Positions 30,372-44,941 of a stretch of 64,000 nt of DNA are shown piece after piece. The stretch is from Rhizobium terricola (GTDB lineage Bacteria; Pseudomonadota; Alphaproteobacteria; Rhizobiales; Rhizobiaceae). The notes under the pieces are model-generated. The model saw nothing but the letters and a program-made list of their open reading frames with translations. It did not search any database and had not been told where the DNA came from. The position numbers and the translations under genes were made by a program. Position 1 is the first letter of the stretch; each line of letters begins with the position of its first letter. The stretch spans positions 1,048,649 to 1,112,648 of the forward strand of contig NZ_JABBGK010000001.1 in assembly GCF_012927355.1 (NCBI RefSeq). The letters are read 5' to 3'.

Positions 30372-30405
30372 TACATCGCCAGAATAATATGTAATCTCCG
30401 TCGAC

Positions 30406-30419: not shown

Positions 30420-30425
30420 GGAAGG

Positions 30426-30447
30426 CGGATGCCATTTCAGGCATCCG
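30426..30447. other. Perfect hairpin upstream of fpr
   Basis: CGGATGCC (30426-30433) and GGCATCCG (30440-30447) are perfect 8-bp arms around ATTTCA. A smaller stem, GGCG-AAA-CGCC (30456-30466), follows. There is no T-run, so it is an operator or leader structure rather than a terminator. Confidence 0.5.
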
Positions 30448-30559
30448 ATGAGCGGGGCGAAACGCCGAAGGTGGCGAATTGTCCGCTTTTTCCGGCCTCA
30501 AAGTTGCGGTATAGGCCTGCGAGCCAAACCTCTCTGGCGACCATAGGAACACAAGACGC

Positions 30560-31372
30560 ATGAATGCTCCTGTCAAAACCGATAATGCGGAACTGATCGT
30601 ACCGGAAGGCGTCTATGCCGAAACTGTGCTCGACGTCACTCACTACACCGATCGCCTGTTCCGCTTCCGCATGACCCGCCCGGCCGGCTTCCGTTTCCGC
30701 TCCGGCGAGTTCGCGATGATCGGCCTCATGGTCGAGGGCAAGCCGGTCTACCGTGCCTATTCGATCGCGAGCCCGGCCTGGGACGAGGAACTCGAGTTCT
30801 TCTCGATCAAGGTGCCGGACGGTCCGCTGACGCAGCACCTGCAGAAGATCAAGCCCGGTGACAAGGTTCTGATGCGCAAGAAGCCGACCGGGACGCTCGT
30901 GCTCGATGCGCTGACGCCCGGCAAGCGCCTCTACATGTTCTCGACCGGTACCGGCATCGCGCCGTTTGCCAGCCTCATCCGCGATCCGGAAACTTACGAA
31001 AAGTTCGAAGAGGTCATCCTCACCCATACCTGCCGTGAGGTTGCGGAACTGCAATACGGTTTCGATCTCGTCGAAGAGATCAAGAACCATGAGTTCCTCG
31101 CCGAAATCGTCGGTGACAAGCTGAAGCACTATGCGACGGTTACCCGCGAAGACTATCCTTTCAAGGGCCGGATCACCGACCTCATGGAGAACGGCAAGCT
31201 CTACAGCGATCTCGGTGTTCCGGCGCTCGATCCGGCGGTCGATCGCGGCATGATCTGCGGTTCGTCGGCCATGCTCAAGGACACCAAGGCCCTGCTGGAA
31301 AAGGCGGGCCTCAACGAAGGCGCCAACAACAAACCGGCGGAATTCGTCATCGAACGCGCCTTCGTCGGCTGA
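30560..31372 (+). CDS. fpr: Ferredoxin/flavodoxin-NADP+ reductase
   Basis: A 270-residue FAD enzyme of the bacterial FPR class. The FAD-binding domain (1-110) has RAYSIASPAWDEELEFFSIKVPDGPLTQ. The NADP domain has STGTGIAPFASLIRDPE, ILTHTCREVAELQYG and GMICGSSAMLKDTKALLEKAG, and the C-terminus FVIERAFVG is the usual one. It moves electrons between NADPH and ferredoxin or flavodoxin and could feed the reductase encoded upstream or take part in oxidative-stress defence. A FNR-like box and hairpin precede it and an intrinsic terminator follows. Confidence 0.95.
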   Translation: MNAPVKTDNAELIVPEGVYAETVLDVTHYTDRLFRFRMTRPAGFRFRSGEFAMIGLMVEGKPVYRAYSIASPAWDEELEFFSIKVPDGPLTQHLQKIKPGDKVLMRKKPTGTLVLDALTPGKRLYMFSTGTGIAPFASLIRDPETYEKFEEVILTHTCREVAELQYGFDLVEEIKNHEFLAEIVGDKLKHYATVTREDYPFKGRITDLMENGKLYSDLGVPALDPAVDRGMICGSSAMLKDTKALLEKAGLNEGANNKPAEFVIERAFVG

Positions 31373-31397
31373 CGGTCAGAGATCAGCGGAAACAGGA

Positions 31398-31426
31398 ACG
31401 CCCGATCGTTGATCGGGCGTTTTTTT
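31398..31426 (+). terminator. Intrinsic terminator of fpr
   Basis: ACGCCCGATC (31398-31407) pairs perfectly with GATCGGGCGT (31411-31420) around GTT; seven Ts span 31420-31426. It lies 25 bases after the fpr stop, between two convergent genes. Confidence 0.93.
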
Positions 31427-31454
31427 GTTTTCGCGGGCGTTTGCTGTCGGGGCT

Positions 31455-32078
31455 TCACGCCTCGCTGAGATAGCCGATCAAGGCCGTCATGGCGGTTTCC
31501 GCCTCATCGCCCTTGCCCTGCTGGATGGCGCGGATCACCGCGACATGCAGAGCGACCGAGCGATCCATCTTTCCGGCCGTTGCGCGCGCATACCACATGC
31601 GACGGGAATGGGACTGAAGCGGTGCCACCGCCGCGATGAGGAAGCGGTTGCTGCAGGCCTCCTCGATGGTTTCGTCGAACCGCTTGTCGGCGGCCAGGAA
31701 GGCCGCGAAATCACCGGCGGCCGCCGACGTCGTCATTGCCGTGGCACAGTCAAGCAGGGCGGCGCGTTGGCCGTTATCGGCGTTTTCGGCCGCAAGACGT
31801 GCGAGAAGCGGTTCGAGCTTCAGCCGAACTGCCATGATCGACCGGTGGTCGGCATCCTCGATCTCGGCAATCTGAAGGCCGACGCGCGGGCGAACGACGA
31901 CGAGACCCTGCCAGGCCAGCTTCTGGATTGCTTCGCGAACCGGGGTGCGGCCATAGCCCGAAAGCTCGATCAACTGCCGTTCGTTCACCAGTGCGCCCGG
32001 TTTCAGTTTCAATGTGACGATAAGGCTTTCGAGCGCGAGGTAGGCGAGGTGACTTTGCGAGTCGGTAATCGTGCTCAT
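31455..32078 (-). CDS. GntR-family regulator, FadR/FCD subfamily
   Basis: A 207-residue DNA-binding regulator. The winged helix is at about 10-75 (LKPGALVNERQLIELSGYGRTPVREAIQKLAWQGLVVVRPRVG). The C-terminal helical FCD ligand domain (about 80-205) has DKRFDETIEEACSNRFL and HVAVIRAIQQGKGDEAETAM. The ligand is unknown. Two TGATATATC elements lie just upstream, so autoregulation is likely. The gene has no metabolic partner nearby: on one side is fpr (convergent) and on the other the MacAB-like exporter in the same direction. Confidence 0.88.
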   Translation of the reverse strand: MSTITDSQSHLAYLALESLIVTLKLKPGALVNERQLIELSGYGRTPVREAIQKLAWQGLVVVRPRVGLQIAEIEDADHRSIMAVRLKLEPLLARLAAENADNGQRAALLDCATAMTTSAAAGDFAAFLAADKRFDETIEEACSNRFLIAAVAPLQSHSRRMWYARATAGKMDRSVALHVAVIRAIQQGKGDEAETAMTALIGYLSEA

Positions 32079-32090
32079 TCTGCCCTCCGC

Positions 32091-32100
32091 TGATATATCT
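32091..32100. promoter_or_regulatory. TGATATATC element 1, probable GntR operator
   Basis: TGATATATCT is found 13 bases upstream of the GntR start codon (32078), followed by CAATTTG. The same core recurs 47 bases away. It is near-palindromic (GATATATC) and well placed to block transcription of the regulator gene. Confidence 0.5.
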
Positions 32101-32137
32101 CAATTTGGCATGTCGCATCCGCGATGGCAAGGCGGAG

Positions 32138-32147
32138 TGATATATCA
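32138..32147. promoter_or_regulatory. TGATATATCA element 2, probable GntR operator
   Basis: A perfect 10-bp palindrome TGATATATCA, 47 bases from element 1. It too is followed by CAATTTG (32151-32157). The gap between the regulator and the exporter permease gene contains nothing else recognisable. Confidence 0.5.
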
Positions 32148-32222
32148 ATGCAATTTGTGGTGGAAAACGCGGAAGACCATTGCGGGAGGACGGAGGGGCG
32201 ACCATTGGCCGCCGCCTCTCCT

Positions 32223-33428
32223 TCATTCGTGGCGCAGCGCCTCGATCGGGTTGAGCTGGGCCGCCCGGCGGGCCGGGAAGTAGCCGAAGACCATGCCGAT
32301 CGCTGCGGAGAAGGCAAAGGCCAGCACGATCACCGAGGGACTGGTGACGAAGGGTACGCTCATATAGCTCACTGCCGAATAGGCGAGTCCGAGACCCAGC
32401 AGAATGCCGATGATGCCGCCGGCCAGCGAGAGCGTCACCGCCTCGACGAGAAACTGGGTGAGAACCTGCTTTTCCAGCGCACCGATCGCCAGACGGATGC
32501 CGATCTCGCGGGTGCGCTCGGTGACCGACACGAGCATGATGTTCATGATGCCGATACCGCCGACGAGCAGGCTGACGGCGGCGACGGCGCCGAGAAGACC
32601 GGTCATCAGCGTGGTGGTGCCGGTCAGCGTTGAGGCCATCTGCGTCATGTCGTTGACAGAGAAATCGTCCTCGCGTCCGGCGATGATCTTGCGGCGCTCT
32701 CGCAGCAGTCGTTCGACGTTCGCCTGGATCTTGCTCGTCGATACGCCGTCCTCGGCTGACAGGATCATGCTGGACACGTCAGAGGAGCCACCGATGCGGC
32801 GCTGGAAGACCTTGAGCGGCATCACCACCATGTCGTCCTGGTCATTGCCCATGCCGCTCTGGCCCTTCTTGCCGAGCGTGCCGATCACCTGGCAGGAGAC
32901 GCTGCCGACGCGGATGTTCTGTTCCAGTGCCGGGGTCGAGCCGAAGAGCTCCTTGCGCACCGTTTCGCCGATGACGCAGACGGCCTGACCGCCGCGCTCC
33001 TCGGAAACCAGGAAAGTCCGGCCGCTGGCGATCGTCCAATCCTGGGCGATGAAATAATCACCGGTCGTGCCCATGACGGTCGTCTGGTGGTTTTCGCCAC
33101 CATAGATCACCACCTGGCTCGACTGGTTGAGGCCTGCCACCGCCCTCAGGCCGGAAATCTGCTCGGTGATCGCCTGAACATCGCGTTCCGTGAACTTCTT
33201 GGCCTCGGTGCTGGCGCGACCGGGGCCAAACTGACCGGGGCGGACGAAGAGGAGGTTGGTGCCGAGCTTGGAGATCTCGGCGGTCACCTGGGCGGTGGTG
33301 CCATTGCCGATCGTCACCATGGCGATGACGGCCGCAACGCCGATGACGACCCCCAGCACGGTGAGGAAGGAGCGCAGCATGTTGCGGCTGATGGCCCGCA
33401 GCGCGAGTTTGACGGTTTCAAAGAACAT
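32223..33428 (-). CDS. MacB-like ABC transporter permease
   Basis: A 401-residue FtsX/MacB-type permease. One N-terminal membrane segment (about 18-40, LRSFLTVLGVVIGVAAVIAMV) is followed by a large MacB periplasmic core domain (about 45-250) and three C-terminal membrane segments with the conserved LVGGIGIMNIMLVSVTERTREIGIRLAIGA. The C-terminus ends FPARRAAQLNPIEALRHE, as in the family. The ATPase is a separate, overlapping gene (11 bases), unlike fused MacB of E. coli. With the adaptor gene it forms a tripartite exporter; an outer-membrane TolC is not encoded here. Confidence 0.93.
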   Translation of the reverse strand: MFFETVKLALRAISRNMLRSFLTVLGVVIGVAAVIAMVTIGNGTTAQVTAEISKLGTNLLFVRPGQFGPGRASTEAKKFTERDVQAITEQISGLRAVAGLNQSSQVVIYGGENHQTTVMGTTGDYFIAQDWTIASGRTFLVSEERGGQAVCVIGETVRKELFGSTPALEQNIRVGSVSCQVIGTLGKKGQSGMGNDQDDMVVMPLKVFQRRIGGSSDVSSMILSAEDGVSTSKIQANVERLLRERRKIIAGREDDFSVNDMTQMASTLTGTTTLMTGLLGAVAAVSLLVGGIGIMNIMLVSVTERTREIGIRLAIGALEKQVLTQFLVEAVTLSLAGGIIGILLGLGLAYSAVSYMSVPFVTSPSVIVLAFAFSAAIGMVFGYFPARRAAQLNPIEALRHE

Positions 33429-34134
33429 CGGCTGGAGCCTTTCCGTTCAGGCTGTCGGAACTCAGATGGCCGTCGACGAAACGCAGGTTACGCTTGGCAT
33501 AGGCTGCGATATCGTCTTCATGGGTGACCATAATCACGGTGATGCCGTGATCCCGATTGAGGCCCGTAATGAGTTCCATGATCTCCTTGCTGGTCTTGGT
33601 GTCGAGGTTGCCGGTGGGTTCGTCGGCGAGCAGGACGGCTGGGCTGGTAACGATTGCGCGGGCGATCGCAACGCGCTGCTGCTGGCCACCGGAAAGTTCC
33701 TGCGTCGTATGGTGTTCGCGTCCTTTCAGGCCGACCTGTTCGAGCGCGATGGCCGCAAGCCGGCGTCGTTCCCGCGCTTCCATGCCTCGATAGACGAGCG
33801 GCAGTTCGACGTTTTCGATTGCCGAGGTGCGCGCGAGCAGGTTGAACCCCTGGAAGACGAAACCGAGCATGTGACGCCTCAGCATGGTGTGCTGGCTGCG
33901 ATCGAGTTCGGAGGTGCGGATACCCTGGAACAGGTATTCGCCGGAGCTCGGCACGTCGAGGCAACCGAGAATGTTCATTGCCGTCGACTTGCCAGAGCCG
34001 GACGGTCCCATGATGGCTACGAATTCATTCTTCTCGATGGTGAGATCGACGCGGTCGAGGGCGCGGATCGTGGCCTCGCCACGGCCATAGACCTTGGAGA
34101 CCTGCTGGAACTCGATGAGTGGAGGGCCGGACAT
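33418..34134 (-). CDS. MacB/LolD-like ABC transporter ATP-binding protein
   Basis: A 238-residue ATPase. Walker A is [12 protein letters not shown] (about 41-52), the Q-loop is in [22 protein letters not shown], the signature is [15 protein letters not shown], Walker B is [11 protein letters not shown], and the H-loop is [11 protein letters not shown]. It powers the permease encoded next to it. Five bases separate it from the adaptor gene upstream, so adaptor, ATPase and permease are one operon. Confidence 0.94.
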
Positions 34135-34139
34135 CAGGG

Positions 34140-35420
34140 TCAGCCCTTCTTTTCGGCGGCGTCGGTGATCAGCAGATCGCCCTCGGCAATGTCCCCCTTG
34201 GTGACGACCGTGTTCTGGCCGTCGCTGGCGCCGATCTCGATGTTGACCGCCGTCGGCACGTTGTTGCGCATCAGCCAGACCGTGCGCTCGCTGCCCACCG
34301 GCTCGGGCGCGCTGATGGAGCCCATGCGGGGCGGACGGAAGAGGCTGAACATGCCACTGCCGGAGCTCTTCTGGGTCAGGCTTTCCGGCGGCGTGTAGCG
34401 CAATGCGGTGTTCGGGATGAGAAGGGCGCCATCGATCGACTGGACGACGATGTCGGCGGTGGCGGTCATGCCGGGGCGCAGCAGAAGCTGGTCATTCTGC
34501 ACCGTCAGGATGCCCATGTAGGTCACGACGTCGTTGACGGTCTCAGAGGCATAGCGAACGGTCGTGATTTCCGCCGGAAACCGTTTGTCGGCAAAGGCAT
34601 CGACGGTGAAGGTCGCCTTCTGGCCGACGGCGACCTGACCGACATCGGCTTCATCAATGTCGACCTGAAGTTCCATTTGCCGAAGGTCACCGGCAATCTT
34701 GAAGAGAGTCGGCGCTTCGAGCGAAGCCGCGACCGTCGCGCCCGGATCGACGTCGCGCGAGAGCACAATGCCGTCGATCGGCGACTGGATCGTCGCCTTG
34801 GTGAGGTTCAGCCGGGCCTGTTCCAACTCGGCCTCGGCGGAAAGCACATTGGCCTCGGCGCTCTGCTTGGTTGCGGCGGAGGCCTCGTAGGTGTAGCCGG
34901 CCGCCTCCATCTCCTGCTGGGTCGAAACCCGGCTGCTGACCAGCGACTTCAGACGGTCGTAACTGGCCTTGGCCGACTGCATGTCGGCTTCCGCCTTTGC
35001 GACACTCGCCTTGGCGGAGAGCAGGCTCGCCTCAGCGCTCTTGACCGTGGCTTCCAGTTTCGCGGTGTCGAGCCGGGCGACGACCTCGCCCTTCTTCACG
35101 GAACTGTTGTAGTCGACCAGCACTTCGCGGATAGTGCCTGACTGTTCGCTGGACACGTCGACCTGAACGGTCGGTTCGACCGAGCCGGTTGCGGTGACGA
35201 TGACCGTGAGGGCGCCCTTCTTGGCCGCCGAAGTGGAATAGGTGTAGGCCGTCGTCTGGCTCGAATAGAGCCAATAGGCATAGCCGGCGACGAGAACCAG
35301 GCCCGCGGCACCGAGGCGCCATATCCAGCGGGAACGTCCGTCGCTCTTGCGGGAGGACGCAAGAAGCTTCGAGAGTTCATTCGTTTCAGTTGACGTTGAC
35401 TTGTCGGCGTCGCTGGTCAT
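34140..35420 (-). CDS. MacA/HlyD-like periplasmic adaptor protein
   Basis: A 426-residue membrane-fusion protein. A cytoplasmic N-terminus is followed by one membrane anchor (about residues 31-51, WIWRLGAAGLVLVAGYAYWLY), a lipoyl half (VEPTVQVDVSSEQSGTIREV), a long alpha-helical hairpin (about 110-210), the second lipoyl half (IQSPIDGIVLSRDVDPGATV) and a beta-barrel. It links the inner-membrane permease to an outer-membrane channel. ATG 35420 is preferred because GAAGATGG precedes it; ATG 35441 is a weaker alternative and would overlap an inverted repeat. The exported substrate is unknown. Confidence 0.91.
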   Translation of the reverse strand: MTSDADKSTSTETNELSKLLASSRKSDGRSRWIWRLGAAGLVLVAGYAYWLYSSQTTAYTYSTSAAKKGALTVIVTATGSVEPTVQVDVSSEQSGTIREVLVDYNSSVKKGEVVARLDTAKLEATVKSAEASLLSAKASVAKAEADMQSAKASYDRLKSLVSSRVSTQQEMEAAGYTYEASAATKQSAEANVLSAEAELEQARLNLTKATIQSPIDGIVLSRDVDPGATVAASLEAPTLFKIAGDLRQMELQVDIDEADVGQVAVGQKATFTVDAFADKRFPAEITTVRYASETVNDVVTYMGILTVQNDQLLLRPGMTATADIVVQSIDGALLIPNTALRYTPPESLTQKSSGSGMFSLFRPPRMGSISAPEPVGSERTVWLMRNNVPTAVNIEIGASDGQNTVVTKGDIAEGDLLITDAAEKKG

Positions 35421-35440
35421 GTCGTGTCCATCTTCGATCA

Positions 35441-35470
35441 TCGGTTTCGTCTTGTATCGACCGAAACCGA
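35441..35470. promoter_or_regulatory. 9-bp inverted repeat in the MacAB-like operon control region
   Basis: TCGGTTTCG (35441-35449) and CGAAACCGA (35462-35470) are perfect arms with a 12-base gap; the half-site centres are 21 bp apart, two helical turns. It begins 21 bases upstream of the adaptor start codon. This is the geometry of a dimeric repressor operator. Confidence 0.6.
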
Positions 35471-35480
35471 GGCGTTGTTA

Positions 35481-35494
35481 TTGACCCGTGTCAA
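35481..35494. promoter_or_regulatory. TTGAC-N4-GTCAA palindrome (FNR/Nnr- or TetR-like site)
   Basis: TTGACCCGTGTCAA is fully symmetric in its arms and fits TTGA-N6-TCAA. On the minus strand it also contains TTGACA, a perfect -35 hexamer. It lies just upstream of the 9-bp inverted repeat, in the promoter region of the MacAB-like operon. Confidence 0.42.
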
Positions 35495-35614
35495 ATCCTG
35501 ACCATCGGGCTCTTTGGCGCGGACCCTTCTCCACCAGCAGGATTGCGCTTGGACCTGTTTCCCACAGCAAGCGCTTTGAGCGAAGTTAAATCTTGGTAAT
35601 GCCGGGACGAAGGC

Positions 35615-36334
35615 TCATCGGCCTTCGCTTGGCGCCTCTAGACCTGTGTCGTGGTCGATGGCCGTCGACCCAGGGTACCGCACGAGTGCCGTCAGGAGCG
35701 CCGCGAAGGCCAGGCAATTGGTGACGTGCCACAGGAAGTGCGTGCCCATGGGGACGACGTCGCAAAGCGGCATGTCGAGACTGCGGAAAACGAAGGAAAG
35801 ACAGAAGAGGGCGACCGAGAGCCCGATCAGGCGGATCGACGGATGGCGTTCGCGCCAGAGCAGCCGGCCTGTGGCGATCACGACAAACAGTGCGGGCAAA
35901 TATTGCGTCGAGCCGCTGACCGTGTCTCCCAGCATGTGCGTCTCGCTCATCGACAAGGCTACGCCAGTCAGGAAGACGACGGCGCCGAAAGCCAATGCGA
36001 CGATGGGTCCGACGGGCGCGCGGACGGAACTGAAGATCATTGCACTGCCGTAGACCGCGACGAAACCCCAGATCGGCAGCACGTCGGCAAGTTCTGCCCA
36101 ACGAGTCGCGAACGTGTGCCAGAGGAAGGAGCCGATGCCGATCGCGACCGCCATGGCCATGAGGGCGAGGATACCCGGCGCCACGCGGCGCTTGCGCAGG
36201 ACATAGACGAGGGCCGTGATGCTGACGATGACTACAAGCAGGCTGGATGCCGAATTCAGCGGCTCGCCCCAGAACTCCGGCCCCGTCCGCTCGCAATAGG
36301 CACCCGTGATCGGCGCAGTCCAGTTGTCAGTCAT
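35615..36334 (-). CDS. Ceramidase-like (CREST superfamily) membrane protein
   Basis: A 239-residue protein with about seven membrane segments. Features of the alkaline ceramidase family are visible: YCERTGPEFWGEPLNSASSL near the N-terminus (Glu and Asn-Ser pattern), GIGSFLWHTFATRWAELADVLPI (Ser, His, Asp) and HFLWHVTNCLAF near the C-terminus (two His); these are the zinc-site positions of the family. It could hydrolyse an amide-linked lipid in the inner membrane; the substrate in this bacterium is unknown. It is divergent from the MlaC-like gene. Confidence 0.82.
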   Translation of the reverse strand: MTDNWTAPITGAYCERTGPEFWGEPLNSASSLLVVIVSITALVYVLRKRRVAPGILALMAMAVAIGIGSFLWHTFATRWAELADVLPIWGFVAVYGSAMIFSSVRAPVGPIVALAFGAVVFLTGVALSMSETHMLGDTVSGSTQYLPALFVVIATGRLLWRERHPSIRLIGLSVALFCLSFVFRSLDMPLCDVVPMGTHFLWHVTNCLAFAALLTALVRYPGSTAIDHDTGLEAPSEGR

Positions 36335-36559
36335 GCCTGATCCGGGTCGGCCTCGGCCGGTTTCAAACCAAAGTATTAGATGGCGCCGAGACGTCTTGAC
36401 CTAAGGCAAAATAACAACGGCCTTCCTTTTCCTTTGCGAATTAGGGGCCCCGCACATATTATGTCAAGCGCATCGGCGGGTGGGGTGCCGGACGTTTTTG
36501 GGACTTGCGGTGAGAAGGCGTTTCCGTATCCATCCGGCGGAAGGTCTTCTGGGGCATCC
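36335..36559. other. Intergenic region between divergent ceramidase-like and MlaC-like genes
   Basis: The 225 bases are A/T-richer than their neighbours in their first third. They contain GGTTT-C-AAACC (36359-36369), and TTGACCTAAGGCAA (36396-36409), an imperfect TTGA-N6-TCAA-like site. No convincing promoter pair was identified. Promoters for both genes must lie here. Confidence 0.35.
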
Positions 36560-37186
36560 ATGTATTTCAGACCATTTTTCTGCGGACCAAAGGGCATCGT
36601 TTCCTCCTGCGGTCGTTTCTTTGTTCTTGCTGCCCTTTGCAGCTCGCTCTTTCTCGGTTTCCAGCCCGCCATTGCCGCCAACGTGGACGGTGCGATTGCC
36701 GCTGTGGAGAAGATCCACGCGGCTACGGTCGCATCTGCGGGCGCCCCTCGGTCACGGCTCGCCGGTTTGCTCGAGCGCTATCTCGACCTTGGCGACATTG
36801 CCCGTAAGGTCGCCGGAAAAGCATGGGAAACTGCCGGCGAGGCGGAGCGGCGCGAGTTTCGCCTCGTGCTACGTGACGTGATGGCCGTCGAGCTCGGCCG
36901 GCGCATCCGCCCGGACGACCGTCTGCGCATTTCCGGTGCCAAGGCGATCGGATCAACGGACGTGGTGGTGCTTTCCTCGCAGATCCGGCGCGACGGCAGT
37001 GCCCGGCGGCTTGACTGGAAGATGCGGCCCTGCGGCGGTTCCTTCTGTCTCTTCGACATCGCCGGAAACGGCGCGTCGCTGACCGTCGCCCGCCGTGACG
37101 ACTATGCTCCCCGCCTCAAGGCGCTCGGAGGATCGCTGGCCGCGCTGACCGCGAGCCTGCGCACCGAGCTTGATCGCCAGAACTGA
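36560..37186 (+). CDS. MlaC/Ttg2D-like periplasmic lipid-binding protein
   Basis: A 208-residue secreted protein: basic N-terminus, hydrophobic segment (FFVLAALCSSLFLGF) and likely cleavage after QPAIAA near residue 40. The mature part has the MlaC pattern: LLERYLDLGDIARKVAGKAW, EAERREFRLVLRDVMAVELG, then strands ending CLFDIAGNGASLTVARRDDYA and a C-terminal helix. MlaC proteins carry phospholipids between membranes together with an MlaFEDB transporter. Here the neighbours are instead a LolD/MacB-type ATPase and an FtsX-like permease. ATG 36560 is chosen for the signal peptide; in-frame starts upstream (36380, 36461) are possible. Confidence 0.75.
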   Translation: MYFRPFFCGPKGIVSSCGRFFVLAALCSSLFLGFQPAIAANVDGAIAAVEKIHAATVASAGAPRSRLAGLLERYLDLGDIARKVAGKAWETAGEAERREFRLVLRDVMAVELGRRIRPDDRLRISGAKAIGSTDVVVLSSQIRRDGSARRLDWKMRPCGGSFCLFDIAGNGASLTVARRDDYAPRLKALGGSLAALTASLRTELDRQN

Positions 37187-37196
37187 GATTTCCCGA

Positions 37197-37895
37197 ATGT
37201 CCCGACTGATCGAAATCCGTAATTGCCGGCGCACCTATGACAATGGCCGCATCATAGCTCTCGATGATGTATCCTTCTCGGTCGACCGAGGCGACTATAT
37301 CGGGATCACAGGGCCGAGCGGCAGCGGCAAGTCGACGCTGCTCGACGTGCTCTGCGGGCTCGAAGAACCGAGCACCGGCGACGTGCTGTTCGACGGCTCG
37401 GCGGTCAGGGGCAGGGCGGCCTGGGCCAGGCTGCGGTCCGAACGCGTCGGTTTCGTCTTCCAGTCCTTCTACCTGATCCCGTCCCTGACGGTCGCGGAGA
37501 ACATCGAGCTCGCAATGCTGTGGCAGGGCGTATCGGCGAAGGCACGCCGCGATCGCGTCGAAGACCTGCTTGAGCGGTTGGGGCTTTCCGGCCGAAGCAA
37601 CCAGCATCCGCTGCAGCTTTCCGGCGGCGAGCGGCAGAGGGTGGCGATCGCCAGAGCCCTTGCCAACCGGCCCGAACTCATCGTCGCCGACGAGCCGACC
37701 GGCAGCCTCGACAGTCGTTCGAGCGGCGAGATCGTCAAGCTGCTGGAAGAGCTCCATCGCGATGGCGGCATCACGGTGGTGATCGTCACCCATGACCGCG
37801 ACATAGCAGAGCGGTGCGATCGGCGCGTCGAACTCGTCGATGGCAAGATCGTCTCGGATACACGCCGCCCGCTGGCCGTGGAGATCAGCGCATGA
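37197..37895 (+). CDS. ABC transporter ATP-binding protein, LolD/MacB type
   Basis: A 232-residue ATPase: Walker [14 protein letters not shown]-loop FVFQSFYLIPSLTVAENIELAM, signature [16 protein letters not shown], Walker B LIVADEPTGSLD, H-loop IVTHDRDIAERCD. The sequence belongs to the group that works with FtsX-like permeases moving lipoproteins, lipids or peptides. It starts ten bases after the MlaC-like gene and overlaps the permease gene by four bases (ATGA), so the three form one operon. Confidence 0.93.
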   Translation: MSRLIEIRNCRRTYDNGRIIALDDVSFSVDRGDYIGITGPSGSGKSTLLDVLCGLEEPSTGDVLFDGSAVRGRAAWARLRSERVGFVFQSFYLIPSLTVAENIELAMLWQGVSAKARRDRVEDLLERLGLSGRSNQHPLQLSGGERQRVAIARALANRPELIVADEPTGSLDSRSSGEIVKLLEELHRDGGITVVIVTHDRDIAERCDRRVELVDGKIVSDTRRPLAVEISA

Positions 37896-39010
37896 ACATC
37901 CTTACCCTTCCTGCCCGCAACCTCGTCTCGCAGAAACTGCGCTCGACACTTACGATCATCGGCATTGCGGTTGCCGTCGGCAGCTTCATCGCGCTCACCG
38001 GGCTGACCCGCGGGCTGCAGGACAGCTACGCCCAAGGCGTGGGTGACGTCGGCGGCGACTATGTCGCCAGCCAGCGTGGCACCTACAGCCTTGTCAGCAG
38101 CTCGATCTCAGAGGATCTGGTCGCCAGGCTGGACACGGTTGCGGGCGTCGAGGAGGCCGCCGGCATCGTGCTGTCGATCACCGAGGTCGGCGACGAGGCG
38201 AACATCTTCGTGACGGGCTGGCCGGAAGGAAGCTTCCTATGGAGGTCGCTCAGGCTCGACCAGGGAACGCCGCCGCTCGGCGATCGGGACGTCGTGCTCG
38301 GCAAGACAGTCGCCGAGGCGCTGGGGAAGACCGTCGGCGACGAGATCGAGATCCAGTACGAACCTTACCGTATCACCGGGATTTCCGTACCGGATTCCGT
38401 GTTCAACCAGAACGTGGCGGTCACGAAACTCAAAGGATTGCAAACGTTGCTGGGCCGTCCCGCCAGCGTGTCGTTGGTGCAGATCCGGCTCGAACGCCCC
38501 GTTGACCCGCAGAAGGCGGCGGCGATCAAGGCAGCGCTGTCGGCCATCTCGCCGACGATCGAAGTGAGCGACAGCGCCGAGTTCGCGGAGAACATGGACT
38601 TCGTGAAGACCGTGGACGCGATCACCTCCGCCGTCTCGCTGATCATGATCCTCGCCTCGTCGATCCTGGTCGCCAACACGCTTCTGATGTCGGTTTCGGA
38701 GCGTGGGCAGGAGTTCGGCATTCTGGCTGCGATCGGCTGGACACCGGCGCGCATCCGTATGCTGGTCGTGGTCGAGGGACTGATGATGTGCATCATCGGC
38801 AGCCTGATCGGCGTGGGCCTCGGGATCGCCGGCATGCATCTCGTTTCGTGGTTGCGCATTTCGGCCGGCCTGCTCGAGCCCTTCCTCAGCGTCGGGATCG
38901 TGGGTGAGGCTTTGTTCTGGGTTCTGTTGATCGGGCCGCTTGCCGCGCTCTATCCGGCATGGCGGGTCACGCGTGCGACACCGTCGGCCGCGCTCAGGGG
39001 AATTCGCTGA
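37892..39010 (+). CDS. FtsX/MacB-like ABC transporter permease
   Basis: A 372-residue permease. The first membrane segment (about 18-38, LRSTLTIIGIAVAVGSFIALTGL) precedes a periplasmic MacB-type core domain (about 40-230). Three C-terminal membrane segments follow, with VANTLLMSVSERGQEFGILAAIGWTPARIRMLV, and the C-terminus reads YPAWRVTRATPSAALRGIR. The order is that of LolC/MacB-class permeases. No adaptor of the MacA type is in this operon; the MlaC-like protein upstream may be the periplasmic partner, which is inference. Confidence 0.91.
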   Translation: MNILTLPARNLVSQKLRSTLTIIGIAVAVGSFIALTGLTRGLQDSYAQGVGDVGGDYVASQRGTYSLVSSSISEDLVARLDTVAGVEEAAGIVLSITEVGDEANIFVTGWPEGSFLWRSLRLDQGTPPLGDRDVVLGKTVAEALGKTVGDEIEIQYEPYRITGISVPDSVFNQNVAVTKLKGLQTLLGRPASVSLVQIRLERPVDPQKAAAIKAALSAISPTIEVSDSAEFAENMDFVKTVDAITSAVSLIMILASSILVANTLLMSVSERGQEFGILAAIGWTPARIRMLVVVEGLMMCIIGSLIGVGLGIAGMHLVSWLRISAGLLEPFLSVGIVGEALFWVLLIGPLAALYPAWRVTRATPSAALRGIR

Positions 39011-39109
39011 TCCGGGGCGATTGTCCGGCCTCTTTCAAGTGTGCACTGGACCCGTCGGCATCCAGCAGCGTTCATGGGATGTTGTTCCACATCACGGGGA
39101 GATGCACGC

Positions 39110-40657
39110 TTGCGGATCGCGAAATACCTTCTTGTCGTCATCGTCCTGCTTACAGTCGTGTCGTGGCTATCCGTCTATGCCTATGGTCGATTTGCAGCGC
39201 ACGCCCGGGGACGTCCCTCAGAGTCCATTCCACCGGCCGCGGATGTTACGGCGCTCGACCGTGTCTTCGGCCGGATGGCAGACGATCGCCCCGATCAGAG
39301 CGGACTTGCGCTGATCGCCGAAGATGTTGGAGCCTTCGCGGCCAGGGCGCATGCTGCCCGCGCAGCGGGGCGTAGCCTTGACCTCCAGTATTATTACTGG
39401 CGCGACGATCTGACCGGTGGCCTCCTGACGCGGGAGGTGTTGGCGGCCGCCGATCGTGGTGTGCGGGTCCGGATACTGCTCGACGATATCAATACTCGTG
39501 GCGACGATTCGCTGCTTGCCGCACTCGACAGTCATCCCCGCATCGAGGTTCGGTTGTTCAATCCGGCCATCAACCGGGAGGGAGCGCTTGGACGAGGCGC
39601 GGAGATGCTGTTGCGTTTCGTCACCGTCACGCGCCGGATGCACAACAAGGCGTGGATTGCAGACGGCCGGTTGGCCATCGTCGGAGGACGCAATATCGGC
39701 GATGCCTATTTCGGCGCCGCGCGTGACGCCAATTTTCGTGACCTCGACGTCCTGATGTTGGGCACGGTTGTTACGTCGACTGCGTCGATCTTCGACAGGT
39801 TCTGGAACAGCCCGGCAGTCCTTCCGGTGGCAAGCCTTGCGGACGGCCGTGGCGAGGGGCTGTTGCGCCTGCGCACCCGGCTTGATCGTCTTGCGCACAG
39901 CCGGCAAGCGGATGCCTATCTTTCCCAACTCGAAGATGACGAGGCTGCGGCCCGGGCCTCGGCGGAGCGATTTACTTTTCACTGGACGGCCGAGGCTGAG
40001 ATCATCTCGGATCCCCCGGAAAAGGTCCTGGGCGTCGGCCAGCAGGGGTGGCTCGACACGGCCATACTGCCGACGATTGCGTCGGCGAGGCAGACGTTGG
40101 AGCTGATTTCGCCGTATTTCATCCCCGGAGACGAAGGGATAGCGATGTTGAAGGGCATGACGGAGCGACACGTTTCGGTCTCGGTCCTCACCAATTCTCT
40201 CGCGGCCACCGACGTTGCGGCAGTGCATGGCGCTTACGCCCCTTATCGACCGGATCTTCTCGCGGCCGGTGTTCACCTTTTCGAGCTCAGGCCCGATGGC
40301 GGGCCACGCCGGTTTTCGTTATTCGGATCCAGCAGTGCCAGTCTTCATACAAAGGCGTTTACGGTCGACGGCATCGCCGGGTTTGTCGGGTCGTTCAATT
40401 TCGATCCCCGATCGATTTCGCTCAATACCGAGATGGGACTGGTCTTTCGCGACCGTCCACTTGCGTCGGCGCTCGAGCAGGAGTTCGCCACCCATACGGA
40501 CCCGAAGCACAGCTATCGGCTCGGCCTCGAATCGGGCCGGATCGTCTGGACGGAAGAGCATGGCAGCCAAGTTGGCAATCATGATCCCGATGCCAGTCTG
40601 TGGCGTCGGTTCGTCGCCGTCGTCACCGGTTTGCTGCCGCTCGAATCGCAGTTGTGA
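39110..40657 (+). CDS. Phospholipase D / cardiolipin synthase-like protein, membrane-anchored
   Basis: A protein of about 515 residues from TTG 39110 (GGGGAG precedes it; GTG 39041 and ATG 39074 are alternatives). One N-terminal membrane anchor (AKYLLVVIVLLTVVSWLSVYAY) is followed by two PLD domains. The HKD motifs are HNKAWIADGRLAIVGGRN and LHTKAFTVDGIAGFVGSFNFDPRS, both complete. The overall layout (SLDLQYYYWRDDLTGGLL, NPAINREG) is that of the ClsC/YmdC class that makes cardiolipin or related lipids. It may exchange phosphatidyl groups at the membrane; the exact reaction is not provable here. Confidence 0.88.
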   Translation: MRIAKYLLVVIVLLTVVSWLSVYAYGRFAAHARGRPSESIPPAADVTALDRVFGRMADDRPDQSGLALIAEDVGAFAARAHAARAAGRSLDLQYYYWRDDLTGGLLTREVLAAADRGVRVRILLDDINTRGDDSLLAALDSHPRIEVRLFNPAINREGALGRGAEMLLRFVTVTRRMHNKAWIADGRLAIVGGRNIGDAYFGAARDANFRDLDVLMLGTVVTSTASIFDRFWNSPAVLPVASLADGRGEGLLRLRTRLDRLAHSRQADAYLSQLEDDEAAARASAERFTFHWTAEAEIISDPPEKVLGVGQQGWLDTAILPTIASARQTLELISPYFIPGDEGIAMLKGMTERHVSVSVLTNSLAATDVAAVHGAYAPYRPDLLAAGVHLFELRPDGGPRRFSLFGSSSASLHTKAFTVDGIAGFVGSFNFDPRSISLNTEMGLVFRDRPLASALEQEFATHTDPKHSYRLGLESGRIVWTEEHGSQVGNHDPDASLWRRFVAVVTGLLPLESQL

Positions 40658-40668
40658 GGGGAGAAAAT

Positions 40669-40743
40669 GGTGAGAGCGCAGGGATTCGAACCCTGGACCT
40701 ACTGATTAAAAGTCAGTTGCTCTACCGGCTGAGCTACGCTCTC
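40669..40743 (-). tRNA. tRNA-Lys (anticodon UUU)
   Basis: Read on the minus strand, the gene runs from GAGAGCG at 40743 to CCA at 40669. The acceptor stem GAGAGCG pairs with CGCTCTC, U8-A9 and the D-arm (GCTC/GAGC) are in place, the anticodon loop CTTTTAA sits on the ACTGA/TCAGT stem, and the T-arm is CAGGG-TTCGAAT-CCCTG. CCA is encoded. It lies 11 bases from the end of the convergent PLD gene. Confidence 0.97.
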
Positions 40744-40873
40744 CCAGGCGGGACGTTGAGGTCCCCGCGGAAGTGAGCGTTACATAGGCAGGAGCCTTCG
40801 GCCGGTCAACCGAAAAATTCAGTGCCGCATGTCGGCGTCTGCGCATTTGTCGCAGGCTACGGAAAGGTGATTG

Positions 40874-40888
40874 GCAAGCATGGCTTGC
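40874..40888. repeat. Short inverted repeat upstream of ccdA
   Basis: GCAAGC-ATG-GCTTGC has perfect 6-bp arms, 43 bases before the ccdA start codon. Candidate operator or leader hairpin. Confidence 0.3.
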
Positions 40889-40931
40889 AGGCGATAGAGA
40901 AGCGGCAATTCGCCGTTACAGGAGCAGACTG

Positions 40932-41684
40932 GTGTCGATCGCCGAGATTTCCCTGATCAGTGCGCTTCTCGCCGGGGCGCTGTCCTTCCTGTCGCCTTGC
41001 GTTCTGCCGCTGGTTCCGCCCTACCTCTGCTACATGGCGGGAATTTCGGTCGAGCAGTTCCGGGGTGGTGGGGCAGGCGCCACGCAGGACGATCGGGCCC
41101 GCCGGGCGGTGATGCTCTCGGCGCTGGCCTTCACGCTCGGATTTGCCACCGTTTTTGTCGCGCTCGGCGCCGGCGCCTCCACGATCGGCACGTTGCTGCG
41201 CCAGCATCTCGACCTGTTGTCGAAGATCGGCGGTCTGATCATCATCGTGATGGGGCTGAATTTCCTCGGCGTCTTCCGTATCGGTCTTCTCTCGCGCGAG
41301 GTGCGTATCTCCGGCGGCGGAAAGCCGGCGACGCTGTCGGGCGCCTATGTCATGGGTCTTGCCTTCGCCTTCGGCTGGACGCCCTGCATCGGCCCGGTGC
41401 TCGGCGCCATCCTAGGCGTCGCGGCTTCGCGTGACACGGTGGGCGACGGCGCCATGCTGCTTGCCGTCTATTCGCTTGGTCTTGCCGTGCCCTTCTGGAT
41501 CGCCGCCGCCTTTTCCGGGGCCTTCATGCGCTTCCTCGCACGCTTCCGGCGCCATCTCGGACTGGTCGAGAAGGTGATGGGCGGCCTCCTTGTGCTCACG
41601 GGCCTTGCCTTCATGTTCGGTTTCGTCGCCGACATGGCGATTTGGTTCCAGCAGACCTTTCCAATCCTCTCCCAAATCGGCTAA
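40932..41684 (+). CDS. ccdA: Cytochrome c biogenesis protein CcdA
   Basis: A 250-residue membrane protein with six predicted membrane segments. It carries the CcdA signature LSPCVLPLVPPYLCYMAG in the first segment and FGWTPCIGPVLGAILGVAA in the fourth, each with one of the redox cysteines. CcdA passes electrons from cytoplasmic thioredoxin to periplasmic thiol proteins that keep apocytochrome c reduced. GTG 40932 is used, with GGAG at 40921-40924. An AEC transporter gene follows 54 bases later. Confidence 0.92.
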   Translation: MSIAEISLISALLAGALSFLSPCVLPLVPPYLCYMAGISVEQFRGGGAGATQDDRARRAVMLSALAFTLGFATVFVALGAGASTIGTLLRQHLDLLSKIGGLIIIVMGLNFLGVFRIGLLSREVRISGGGKPATLSGAYVMGLAFAFGWTPCIGPVLGAILGVAASRDTVGDGAMLLAVYSLGLAVPFWIAAAFSGAFMRFLARFRRHLGLVEKVMGGLLVLTGLAFMFGFVADMAIWFQQTFPILSQIG

Positions 41685-41738
41685 GCCCGAAGGCGAAGGG
41701 TCGCATACGACCCGCCCCGCGGATCGAGGAGAGGCGGT

Positions 41739-42701
41739 TTGGGAGACATCATCGCTCTGGTCCTGCCGTTCTTCGGCCTGATCCTGATCGGCTATATTTC
41801 CGGGCGTATCACGCATCAGCCGGCGGGCGCGCTCGGCTGGCTCAACTTCTTCGTGATCTACGTCACACTGCCATCGCTGTTCTTCAAGCTGGTCTCCCGC
41901 ACACCGATCGAGGAACTGACGCGCATCGATTTCATCGCGGCGGCGCTCGCGGCGACTTATGCGATCTTCCTGGTGGTTTTCCTGATCGGCCGGCTCATTC
42001 GCAAGAACTCGATCGCCGACTGCACGATCCAGGCGCTGGCCGGTGCCTACGGCAATATCGGCTACATGGGGCCGGGGCTTGCGCTTCTCGCTTTCGGCGA
42101 GGCTGCCGCCGTCCCGGTGGCGCTGATTTTCTGCTTCGAAAACGCCGCGCACTTCATCGCCGCGCCGGCGCTGATGGCCTTTGCCGGCGGCGACGAGCGG
42201 CCGCGCGGCCGCGTCGCGCTCGATGTGCTGAAGAAGATCGCCTATCACCCGTTCATCATCGCGACTGCGGTCGGGTTCCTCGCTGCCGGACTGCATTTCG
42301 AGCCGCCTGTCGCCCTCCAGCGTCTCATCGACTATCTCGCCCAGGCCGCGGCGCCCTGTGCGCTGTTCGCCATGGGTGTCACGCTGGCGCTCCGGCCGTT
42401 GAAGCGGATCCCGGCGGAGATCGGCTATATCGTGCCGATCAAGCTCGTGGCCCATCCGGTGCTGGTCTATGTCGTGCTGGGGTTCGTCGGCAATTTCGAT
42501 CCGCTGTGGATCTATACCGCGGTGTTGCTTGCCTCACTGCCGACGGCCACCAATGTGTTCGTCATCGGCCAGCAATACGGCGTCTGGCAGGAACGCGCCT
42601 CGGCGACGATCCTGATCACCACGGTCCTTTCGGTGCTGTCGGTTTCCGGCCTGCTCTACGCGATCACCAACGGTATCCTACCGCCGGATCTTTTCCCTTA
42701 A
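41739..42701 (+). CDS. AEC-family transporter (auxin efflux carrier family)
   Basis: A 320-residue protein with about ten membrane segments in the two-bundle AEC pattern. Landmarks are LVLPFFGLILIGYISGR at the start, LAGAYGNIGYMGPGLALLAFG (the N-bearing crossing of the first half) and LLASLPTATNVFVIGQQYGV (second half). Bacterial members carry dicarboxylates or other small acids; the substrate here is unknown. The start is TTG 41739, with GAGGAGAGG just before. Its last 24 bases overlap the end of the convergent monooxygenase gene. Confidence 0.88.
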   Translation: MGDIIALVLPFFGLILIGYISGRITHQPAGALGWLNFFVIYVTLPSLFFKLVSRTPIEELTRIDFIAAALAATYAIFLVVFLIGRLIRKNSIADCTIQALAGAYGNIGYMGPGLALLAFGEAAAVPVALIFCFENAAHFIAAPALMAFAGGDERPRGRVALDVLKKIAYHPFIIATAVGFLAAGLHFEPPVALQRLIDYLAQAAAPCALFAMGVTLALRPLKRIPAEIGYIVPIKLVAHPVLVYVVLGFVGNFDPLWIYTAVLLASLPTATNVFVIGQQYGVWQERASATILITTVLSVLSVSGLLYAITNGILPPDLFP

Positions 42702-43880
42702 GAAACCGGGGAAGGATTTCAGCGCCCGGCCGGGTGCAACACCCTCCTGCATGACGAGATGGCGAAGCGGCGCAACCGCGGACAGCAGTTGCAGGCCTGC
42801 GGCCCGCAGCATCTGGACCGGCAGAAGATCGGAGAGCAGCGAGCGATTGAGGAGATCGACGCTCGCGGTGCGGCTGATGATGTCGGCACGCCTCATCCGG
42901 TCGAAGCGGTCGCCGGCGTCGGCCGGGATCGGCCGGCCTTCGCGATCACACAGGATCTCCTCAAGTGTGGAAATGTCCCGTAGGCTGAGATTGAGGCCCT
43001 GGGCACCGATGGGCGGAAAGGCATGGCCTGCTTCGCCGATGAAGGCGGCGCGGCCCTTGCCGTATCGGTCGGCGGTCATGCCGGAGAGCGGCCAGGCCTG
43101 AACGCCGTCCTCGACCGTCACCTTCCCAAGCATCGACTGCATGCGGGTTTCGACCGCGGCGGAGAGTTCCTCGGTGGTGAGCGCCAGAAGGCGCTCGGCC
43201 TCTTTCGGCTCTACCACCCAGACGAGGCTTGAGCGCAGGCCGGGCAGGGGCACTTGAGTGAAGGGACCGCTTTCCCCGTGGAATTCGGTGGAGGTGTTCC
43301 GATGCGGTATGGTGTGGGAAAAATTGAGGACGACGGCAGTCTGCGGATAGGACCAGGTCTTGACGCCCACGCCGGCGCTTTCCCGGACCGACGACTTGCG
43401 CCCGTCTGCGCCGACAACGAAGCCGGCCTCTATCTCTTGCCCGTCGGCAAGCGCGACCGAGACCTGCTCTGCCGATATCGTGATCTCGCTGGCAAGCGCG
43501 GGAAAGGCCGTAATGTTCGGCTCGGCTTTGACGGCCATGGACAGGGCTTCGTTCAAGGCGCTGTTGAGGAAATTGTATCCGAAGGCCTCAAGCCCGATTT
43601 CCGCGCTGCGGAACGGTACCACAGGCGCGCGGACCAGACGGTTCGTGCCGTCGATGATCTGCATGGTCGACAGAGCGGCCGCCGAAGGCTGGATCGCCTG
43701 CCAGAGACCGAACCGCTCCATCATTCGGATCGACTGGTCCATGAGGGCCGTGGTGCGACGGTCCGTTCCGGGAAGCGGTGGCGCGACGAAGGCGACGCGC
43801 CGTCCGCCGCGCGCAAGGGCAATCGCCGCGATGGATCCTGCAAGGCCGCCGCCGATGACCGCGATGTCGAAATGTTTCAT
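42678..43880 (-). CDS. UbiH/UbiF/COQ6-type FAD monooxygenase
   Basis: A 400-residue flavoprotein hydroxylase. The FAD-binding GGGLAGSIAAIALARGG is near residues 9-25, VVGADGRKSSVRE (DG motif) is in the middle, and GEAGHAFPPIGAQGLNLSLRDI is the second FAD motif. This group hydroxylates the ring of ubiquinone precursors; which position it modifies cannot be told. ATG 43880 is used; GTG 43889 is an alternative three codons upstream. It overlaps the AEC gene tail-to-tail by 24 bases and is divergent from pcs. Confidence 0.91.
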   Translation of the reverse strand: MKHFDIAVIGGGLAGSIAAIALARGGRRVAFVAPPLPGTDRRTTALMDQSIRMMERFGLWQAIQPSAAALSTMQIIDGTNRLVRAPVVPFRSAEIGLEAFGYNFLNSALNEALSMAVKAEPNITAFPALASEITISAEQVSVALADGQEIEAGFVVGADGRKSSVRESAGVGVKTWSYPQTAVVLNFSHTIPHRNTSTEFHGESGPFTQVPLPGLRSSLVWVVEPKEAERLLALTTEELSAAVETRMQSMLGKVTVEDGVQAWPLSGMTADRYGKGRAAFIGEAGHAFPPIGAQGLNLSLRDISTLEEILCDREGRPIPADAGDRFDRMRRADIISRTASVDLLNRSLLSDLLPVQMLRAAGLQLLSAVAPLRHLVMQEGVAPGRALKSFPGFLREKIRR

Positions 43881-43999
43881 GCCAACCACCCAATGCTGTT
43901 TGGGCTCTATTTAGTTCCGTTGGCGGGCGAAATCCATAAGGCGATTTGGCGCGGGGTGGCTTGAGCCATCGCCACGATGGTTGCGGCGAAATTGCTCGG

Positions 44000-44038
44000 C
44001 GACCGAAGAGGCGGTTGCAAAAACCGCCGTTTCGGTCG
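44000..44038. repeat. Large inverted repeat between the monooxygenase gene and pcs
   Basis: CGACCGAA (44000-44007) pairs with TTCGGTCG (44031-44038), and GGCGGTT (44010-44016) with AACCGCC (44022-44028). They are separated by one 2-base mismatch step on each side, with a 5-base loop. The 17-base arms would form a very stable hairpin, 40 bases before the pcs start. There is no T-run on either side. Confidence 0.7.
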
Positions 44039-44077
44039 ATACGAATGCCGAGGCTGCGAATGGGGCGCGATCGGGAC

Positions 44078-44806
44078 ATGAAGATCTTCAATTATCGGCG
44101 TGTGCCTTACGCGGAAATGCGCGCCTTTTCCGTTCATATCCTGACGGCCTCGGGTTCCTTCCTGGCCTTTCTCGGCGTCGTCGCCGCCGCAGAGCGTCGA
44201 TTCGTCGACATGTTCTGGTGGTTGGGGCTCGCACTCCTCGTCGACGGGATCGACGGTCCGATCGCCCGCAAGGTGCGCGTCAAGGAAGTGCTGCCGAACT
44301 GGTCCGGCGACACGCTGGACAACATCATCGACTACGTCACCTACGTTCTTCTGCCGGCCTTCGCACTCTACCAGAGCGGCATGATCGGCGAGCCCTGGTC
44401 CTTCGTCGCGGCGGGCATGATCGTTGTGTCGAGCGCGATCTATTATGCCGACATGGGCATGAAGACGGACGAGTATTTCTTCTCCGGTTTCCCGGTTGTG
44501 TGGAACATGGTCGTGTTCACGCTGTTCGTCATCGATGCGGATGCCGTGACCGCGTTGACCGTGGTGACGGTGTCGGTCGTGCTCACCTTCCTGCCGATCC
44601 ATTTCCTGCATCCGGTGCGCGTGAAACGGTTGCGCCTGCTCAATCTCGCGGTCTTCTTCCTCTGGTGCGGCTTCGGCGGCTATGCGCTGCTGCTGCATTT
44701 CCAGACCCCTTTCTGGGTGATGATCGGCTTTGTCGTCACCGGCATCTACCTCTATGCGATCGGCGCTGTTCTGCAGTTCCTCCCGGCGCTCGGCCGACAG
44801 GACTGA
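44078..44806 (+). CDS. pcs: Phosphatidylcholine synthase
   Basis: A 242-residue integral membrane enzyme that joins choline directly to CDP-diacylglycerol, the Pcs route of rhizobia. The modified CDP-alcohol phosphotransferase motif is at about residues 55-84: DGIDGPIARK, then GDTLDNIIDYVTY, with the conserved Asp, Gly, Ala-Arg and Asp residues. About eight membrane segments. The protein is highly similar in my memory to Sinorhizobium Pcs, including FNYRRVPYAEMRAFSVHILT and GMKTDEYFFSGFPVVWN. Start ATG 44078 matches that N-terminus; the frame is open upstream through the large inverted repeat. Confidence 0.96.
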   Translation: MKIFNYRRVPYAEMRAFSVHILTASGSFLAFLGVVAAAERRFVDMFWWLGLALLVDGIDGPIARKVRVKEVLPNWSGDTLDNIIDYVTYVLLPAFALYQSGMIGEPWSFVAAGMIVVSSAIYYADMGMKTDEYFFSGFPVVWNMVVFTLFVIDADAVTALTVVTVSVVLTFLPIHFLHPVRVKRLRLLNLAVFFLWCGFGGYALLLHFQTPFWVMIGFVVTGIYLYAIGAVLQFLPALGRQD

Positions 44807-44941
44807 CGGCCTGCGCTTTGCTGCGCAAAACCAAAAAAAACCTCTGCCTATATATTGTGCGATGCCGCAAACGGGTTATGAATTGTGCTTTGGACCGGGC
44901 CCAAGACCCGGCCGCCTTGACGGCGATGCAAAGGGGGACCC

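Follow-up and report, generated by a model that had tools for sequence, protein, structure and literature searches.

Gene content of the locus

The window described here is a stretch of 64,000 nucleotides from Rhizobium terricola (contig NZ_JABBGK010000001.1, positions 1,048,649 to 1,112,648). Its subject is a set of three adjacent genes, referred to below as the cassette, which encode a secreted MlaC-like protein and the ATPase and permease of an ATP-binding cassette (ABC) pump. On either side of the cassette lies a gene for a protein resembling a lipid enzyme. It probably moves lipids across the cell envelope in a manner not described before; the protein families are known, and their pairing into one system appears to be the new part. 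A sequence-only reading made earlier had placed five genes at this locus, and all five are present. The features are listed with positions counted from the first nucleotide of the window.

36560-37186, plus strand: secreted protein of 208 amino acids with a predicted MlaC fold and an N-terminal signal-like hydrophobic stretch, the proposed lipid shuttle (PF05494, 6e-15)
37197-37895, plus strand: LolD/FtsE-class ABC ATPase of 232 amino acids (PF00005, 3.2e-37)
37892-39010, plus strand: type VII (FtsX/MacB-type) permease of 372 amino acids (MacB_PCD, 6.7e-20; FtsX, 1.6e-16)
35615-36334, minus strand: ceramidase-superfamily membrane protein, divergent from the operon, an accessory of the genus-level block (PF05875, 1.8e-11)
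39041-40657, plus strand: PLD-superfamily cardiolipin-synthase-like protein with an N-terminal hydrophobic segment and an uncertain start codon, an accessory (PLDc_2, 1.5e-32)
40668-40743, minus strand: tRNA-Lys(TTT), bordering the block (ARAGORN)
32223-35441, minus strand: operon of a MacA-like adaptor and a split MacB with separate ATPase and permease genes, adjoining the block

The stop codon of the ATPase gene and the permease gene overlap by 4 bases, and 10 bases separate the stop codon of the MlaC-like gene from the ATPase gene. Because of this overlap and this gap, the three genes very probably form a single transcript. The PLD-like gene follows the permease gene after 30 bases. For the MlaC-like gene, ATG 36560 is the most likely start codon, since it was aligned with an internal methionine in the longer open reading frames of four orthologues from the genus (L129, L131, L132 and L133).

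Carrier and pump families

The MlaC-like protein scored 55.9 bits against PF05494, above the cut-off of 26, and was the sole match found when the genome was searched with this family. It missed the cut-off of the HpnM model TIGR03481 (37.4 bits, compared to 160.1). A profile built from 11 relatives matched solved MlaC-family chains in the PDB, the best at 5.8e-17. The AlphaFold2 model of the protein has a mean predicted local distance difference test score (pLDDT) of 87.2 and a predicted template modelling score (pTM) of 0.75, and with Foldseek it gave 11 PDB matches at E<=0.001, all of them MlaC/Ttg2D or phospholipid-binding relatives. In VIA-align, ten MlaC-type entries were matched over 161-166 residues with Z scores of 14.8-18.3 and a root-mean-square deviation (rmsd) of 2.6-3.5; the best was 8dte (Z 18.3, rmsd 2.6, 162 residues aligned), and E. 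coli MlaC, 5uwa, reached Z 16.4 (rmsd 2.8, 164 aligned). Two MlaC chains solved inside complexes scored 10.9 and 9.5, the best unrelated fold 9.1. The secreted protein is thus predicted to have the MlaC fold that the sequence-only reading had supposed for it.

The ATPase and the permease belong to the type VII ABC class, the MacB/LolCDE/FtsEX superfamily. For the ATPase, the best NCBIfam matches were LolD, MacB, YbbA and FtsE, with the LolD model TIGR02211 first at 215.8 bits, below its cut-off of 307.75. The permease scored 58.4 bits against the LolC/E equivalog (cut-off 362.45), and the MacB equivalog, a full-length fused model with a cut-off of 966, was missed by both proteins (ATPase 211.3 bits, permease 35 bits). 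Since the LolC/E, MacB and LolD equivalog cut-offs were missed, the pump is neither LolCDE nor MacB as these systems are named. Pfam and the AlphaFold2 model of the permease (mean pLDDT 82.5, pTM 0.66) agree on a single periplasmic core domain, inserted between transmembrane helices 1 and 2, and on an FtsX C-terminal domain; the model has four long helices, at residues 15-52, 236-269, 285-321 and 334-361. Its PDB matches include HrtB, Spr0695, LolE, LolC, MacB, FtsX and YbbAP, and it resembles BceB as well.

The cassette and its accessories in other genomes

For the permease, matches were found in at least 4 of 297 genomes of the order, at least 3 of 385 of the class and at least 5 of 398 of the phylum. 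These counts are lower bounds, because few candidates were scored per genome (at most six in the order search and at most five in the other two). In the three other genomes of the order, G407, G335 and G359, an MlaC-like protein precedes the ATPase. Its PF05494 match is 6.7e-24 in G407 and 1.4e-8 in G335, and the intact end of the frameshifted gene in G359 reaches 2.1e-5 and 24.8 bits, just below the cut-off of 26. This G359 gene (L008 / L090) is split over reading frames, either by an assembly error or as a pseudogene. The two other class matches, G445 and G491, are both without an MlaC-like gene, and the four other phylum matches have a LolA-like gene instead, with no MlaC-like gene detected.

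Searches within the families of G407, G335 and G359 gave a match in 3 of 28, 1 of 11 and 4 of 30 genomes. Two G823 loci, one G825 locus and further loci from G842, G844 and G846 joined the set in this way, and the gene order is unchanged in every one of them. The G844 permease is cut by a contig end, and the MlaC-like gene of G1211 contains undetermined bases. A scan of genome contigs, of which the best 80 loci were listed, gave one locus with an MlaC-like gene, in Rhodoblastus sp. 17X3 (L013 6567-10689), where the MlaC-like, ATPase and permease genes stand in the same order (PF05494, 1.9e-10). A plasmid search returned 386 records, every one below 60% identity. A partial match in G084, interrupted by an internal stop, found no support in a wider stretch and was dropped.

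Two permease trees were calculated, the first from 47 selected rows, excluding G491 and the more distant scan loci, and the second from 41 rows, with G491 added, some near-copies removed and other outgroups. The first contains a clade (support 96/87) in which 17 of 18 rows have an MlaC-like gene just upstream of the ATPase, 7 of these from the genus of the window and 10 from outside it; in the second, the same clade (support 100/99) has 14 such rows out of 15. The sequence-only reading had called for a survey of whether other genomes conserve the gene order, and these trees show that they do. The label test in the first tree compared MlaC rows with LolA rows only, and rows assigned to no group are defined only by the lack of a detected MlaC-like or seed LolA-like neighbour; at one locus, L035, a LolA-like open reading frame lies 2.4 kilobases (kb) away. 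The profile used to find MlaC-like neighbours was built from most of the same proteins. Pfam provides an independent measure: PF05494 was run on 9 of the 17 rows and was above its cut-off in 8, the ninth being the frameshifted G359. In all 16 rows for which it was computed, the distance from the MlaC-like stop codon to the estimated ATPase start is at most 50 bases; Rhodoblastus L013 was left out here, since a paralogue of the ATPase scored best there. Chance adjacency of the three genes was ruled out by an order kept in 17 of 18 clade rows, 10 of them outside the genus.

Carrier and pump were also inherited together. Over 12 of the 17 MlaC-positive rows, carrier and permease distances are correlated with r = 0.97, a value reached in 0 of 5000 permutations, and the carrier and permease trees have the same groupings except for the order within the genus. 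Among the 12 rows, permeases can be as little as 28% identical and carriers as little as 16%, which makes an old association probable. G823 contains two divergent copies on one contig, with all three genes in each, which stand in different parts of the permease tree, and its family is scattered over three parts of that tree. These copies and this scatter indicate that the gene set moves or duplicates as a whole. The genes of the block are under purifying selection, with ratios of nonsynonymous to synonymous substitution rates (dN/dS) of 0.10-0.30 (two relatives compared for the PLD-like gene, three for the others), which are approximate because dS is near saturation and open reading frame starts were set mechanically.

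A second type of putative carrier was found beside pumps of the same kind. At six loci from Pseudomonadota (L119, L120, L121, L122, L012 and L014), ATPase and permease genes are followed, at the end of the permease gene, by a gene for a secreted LolA-like protein. Two of these loci are from Gallionellaceae and four from genomes grouping with them. The Pfam LolA_like family was tested on five: L012 and L121 were above the cut-off and L119 and L120 just below it, and L122 had no listed match. Both L122 and L014, the latter within an over-long open reading frame, were assigned by pairwise similarity to L119. Two different lipid-carrier-type folds thus adjoin one kind of pump, and this is the main argument that the partner of the pump is a carrier. 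The carrier fold seems to be exchangeable on this kind of pump, between the MlaC fold and a LolA-like protein. The Gallionellaceae-type loci also hold a PF10118-type protein (by Pfam for L119), and several lie near cytochrome-like genes; they are possibly another undescribed lipid system.

In the genus of the window, the cassette is present in 7 of 63 genomes, and the ceramidase-like gene was found in exactly the seven that have the permease. This protein scored 44.4 bits against PF05875 (cut-off 32.5). Its Ser/His/Asp/HxxxH residues are invariant in the seven orthologues, and we take them to be catalytic residues, as in ceramidases. For the PLD-like protein, the best NCBIfam model was cardiolipin synthase TIGR04265 at 106.8 bits, below the cut-off of 290, which places it in the superfamily and no further; two motifs in it are presumably HKD motifs. 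The PLD-like gene stands at this site in 6 of the 7 genomes and is missing from the cassette locus of G1190, where a split relative is found elsewhere. In G1205 (contig C30, 52111-64766), about 12.6 kb lie between the CcdA-like and PLD-like genes, compared to a few hundred bases in the window, and the extra distance appears from the sequence to be an insertion on the tRNA-Lys side.

From the 56 genomes of the genus without the permease, 20 were fetched for a synteny check. Around the tRNA-Lys and the CcdA-like gene of these 20, no match to the ceramidase-like, MlaC-like, permease or PLD-like gene was found. In 7 of the 20, macA lies within reach of the tRNA-Lys, at 271 bases in G1218, which represents an empty site, and at less than 700 bases in G1238 and G1222. 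A genus tree could hold 26 of 27 rows, the cassette-bearing G1205 being dropped because marker genes were missing from its stretch, and the six placeable genomes with the cassette group together as a single clade (support 0.96). The idea that the block is a mobile island with tRNA-derived repeats was rejected: within positions 30001-46000 of the window, no segment of the tRNA-Lys region at least 12 bases long is repeated exactly, and the GC content of the block is ordinary (62-65%, with 63% for the window).

Outside the genus, the stretches around the cassettes of G407, G335, G359, G823, G825, G842, G844 and G846, some spanning only 4-9 kb, gave no match to the ceramidase-like gene, the PLD-like gene or MacA. 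The ceramidase-like and PLD-like genes are genus-level accessories and stand outside the core. Other genes of a lipid type accompany the cassette elsewhere. In Rhodoblastus L013, the permease is followed by a protein that combines a GNAT domain with a FeeM (N-acyl amino acid synthase) domain. A lycopene-cyclase-like gene and an AMP-binding/acyl-reductase-type gene lie near one G823 copy, and a CrtC-type lipocalin gene is found beside the G825 copy.

Proposed function of the cassette

For the cassette, the reading we favour, with a probability of about 0.62, is that a three-gene type VII ABC system hands a membrane lipid to a dedicated MlaC-fold carrier. The pump would consist of two permeases and two LolD-class ATPases, and the periplasmic domains of the permeases would pass a membrane lipid or lipid-like amphiphile to the MlaC-like protein. 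ATP binding would close the ATPases and, by mechanotransmission, the periplasmic domains, pushing the acyl chains into the pocket of the docked carrier, as in LolCDE with LolA. Once loaded, the carrier could diffuse away and reach either the outer membrane or an enzyme of the envelope. In the genus of the window, the two accessory proteins, ceramidase-like and PLD-like, may produce the cargo or use it up. A phospholipid, cardiolipin and a sphingolipid-like molecule are candidates, and the neighbouring enzymes fit any of them and prove none. The proposed pump mechanism is modelled on LolCDE-LolA and YbbAP-TesA (PMC12646458, available excerpt), and a direction from the inner to the outer membrane would follow from the same comparison.

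LolCDE loads the carrier LolA. Its likeness to the cassette lies in a type VII permease, a LolD-class ATPase and a soluble periplasmic carrier of acyl chains, and LolE and LolC are among the closest folds to the permease; it differs in having two permeases, LolC and LolE, where the cassette has one permease gene, and in a carrier of the LolA fold instead of the MlaC fold. The Mla system, in which MlaC works with MlaFEDB, shares a carrier of the same family and fold, whereas the cassette is energised by an FtsX-type pump, with no MlaD or MlaE in its operon. HpnM, from a hopanoid cluster, is likewise an MlaC-family protein outside a classical Mla operon, and belongs with the RND protein HpnN. 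YbbAP-TesA of E. coli differs from the cassette in its size and its partner: the matched YbbAP chains have 799-804 residues and a 10-helix fold (PMC12646458, excerpt, for the fold), compared to 372 amino acids and four transmembrane helices here, and TesA is an enzyme and not a carrier.

Of the published layouts found, the Borrelia BBJ23-29 cluster, as presented in the excerpt of PMC13078400, comes nearest. It has a homodimeric MacB-like type VII transporter, a neighbour of a carrier fold and a predicted extraction of a non-polar ligand. It differs from the cassette in that its carrier is LolA-like and is accompanied by TPR proteins and a member of the Omp85 family; the excerpt does not name MlaC. 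Among the literature matches listed, in a search that excluded most subscription journals, the pairing of MlaC with a LolD/FtsX pump was not found. Six papers name both MlaC and FtsX; in the portions available from two of them these are separate genes, and the MlaC of PMC13082787 is, in its excerpt, a program option. The core fold of MlaE is distantly related to that of MacB (PMC7790496, excerpt), and an MlaC-type partner for a MacB-type pump is therefore less odd than it appears.

Several points weigh against the transfer of lipid to an MlaC-fold carrier. Gene linkage between carrier and pump does not prove a complex, and the clustering and distance tests ignore shared ancestry. One clade member in both trees, G445, has the ATPase and permease with no recognisable MlaC-like protein; at this locus (L098 5556-10362), the ATPase is preceded by a PF06100 gene (oleate hydratase family), and the opposite flank carries a cytochrome P450 gene. 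The class match G491, on a long branch outside the clade, has neither carrier type nearby. By VIA Z score, the best match of the permease is the heme exporter HrtB (26.8), whose system is not known to include a soluble carrier. Since the six placed cassette-bearing genomes form one clade, the co-occurrence with the ceramidase-like gene in the genus amounts to one gain, that is, one event. Next to the cassettes of G407, G335, G359 and G842, the genes tested do not encode lipid enzymes, and no outer-membrane acceptor was seen beside the cassette.

Unlikely, and yet the best placed of the alternatives, is a protective or sensing type VII system, which would free lipids or amphiphiles from attack or drive a periplasmic partner, like BceAB or FtsEX-EnvC; the MlaC-like protein would then sense lipids or act as a decoy. 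FtsEX-EnvC, an amidase regulator, is itself of type VII (PMC12646458, excerpt), the permease resembles FtsX and BceB among others, and a patchy distribution (at least 4 of 297 genomes in the order, 7 of 63 in the genus) would suit an accessory defence trait. However, the partner is predicted to have the MlaC lipid-carrier fold, and related permeases are adjoined by a LolA-like protein.

Rather improbable is a lipid clearance resembling that of YbbAP-TesA, for which an extraction of hydrophobic molecules, to be hydrolysed afterwards, has been proposed (PMC12646458, excerpt). Here the pump would present unwanted lipids to ceramidase-like and PLD-like enzymes facing the periplasm, with the MlaC-like protein as a go-between. 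The ceramidase-like gene always accompanies the cassette in the genus, the PF06100 gene lies beside the ATPase in G445, and the FeeM-domain gene lies beside the permease in Rhodoblastus, all of which would fit. However, the stretches searched from other Rhizobiales gave no match to either enzyme, and the PLD-like gene is missing from the G1190 locus.

It is quite improbable that the MlaC-like protein serves the MCE system of this genome, as the MlaC which that system lacks, and stands beside an unrelated exporter by chance. The sequence-only reading had described MlaE, MlaF and MlaD as absent, which holds for the operon; the genome, however, has its one MlaE match and its one MlaD match about 170 kb from the locus, beside an ATPase, and a single PF05494 protein was found in it. 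This MCE operon (L093 2915-7031) encodes a STAS-fused MlaE, an ATPase, an extended MlaD of 456 amino acids and its own PF03886 auxiliary lipoprotein, without an MlaC, and a layout with an extended MlaD and a PF03886 lipoprotein is not known to use MlaC. Furthermore, throughout the Rhizobiales the MlaC-like gene keeps its place beside the genes for the ATPase and the permease, and the protein is better explained by its own pump.

Least probable of all is that the cassette belongs to a tripartite efflux pump and makes use of the MacA next to it, an adaptor that the sequence-only reading had correctly found missing from the operon and that is nevertheless encoded, with a split MacB, directly beside it on the other strand. 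This adaptor already has an ATPase gene and a permease gene to itself, 7 of the 20 relatives fetched have macA close to the tRNA-Lys and no cassette there, and the stretches of the eight cassette genomes named above, some of only 4-9 kb, gave no MacA match; the idea was kept as a weak one because Rhodoblastus L013 also has a MacA/MacB operon, a few kb off on the other strand.

Lipid transfer to a dedicated MlaC-fold carrier therefore remains the reading preferred here. The sequence-only reading had suggested a lipid transport system of another kind with lipid enzymes beside it. Such a system is the best-supported explanation, because the fold is predicted to be that of MlaC and other genomes share the gene order; the enzymes are real, and the ceramidase-like gene co-occurs with the cassette in the genus, but this co-occurrence is a single event, and the stretches from other Rhizobiales gave neither enzyme. 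A tentative and doubtful extension is a new class of directional exporters, in which a type VII pump would load an MlaC-type shuttle and thereby drive lipid outward, from inner membrane to outer, a direction in dispute for the Mla system. The carrier would be exchangeable, with the MlaC fold in Rhizobiales and a LolA-like protein in the Gallionellaceae-type loci, and clade-specific lipid enzymes would supply the cargo.

The direction of transport by MlaC is treated as an open question in the available parts of PMC10094684 and PMC8035174. The cassette would couple an MlaC-type carrier to a pump with relatives that take molecules out of the inner membrane, and it would offer a naturally directional test case. 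If the proposed handover is true, it would also suggest that carrier folds are swappable on one type of pump.

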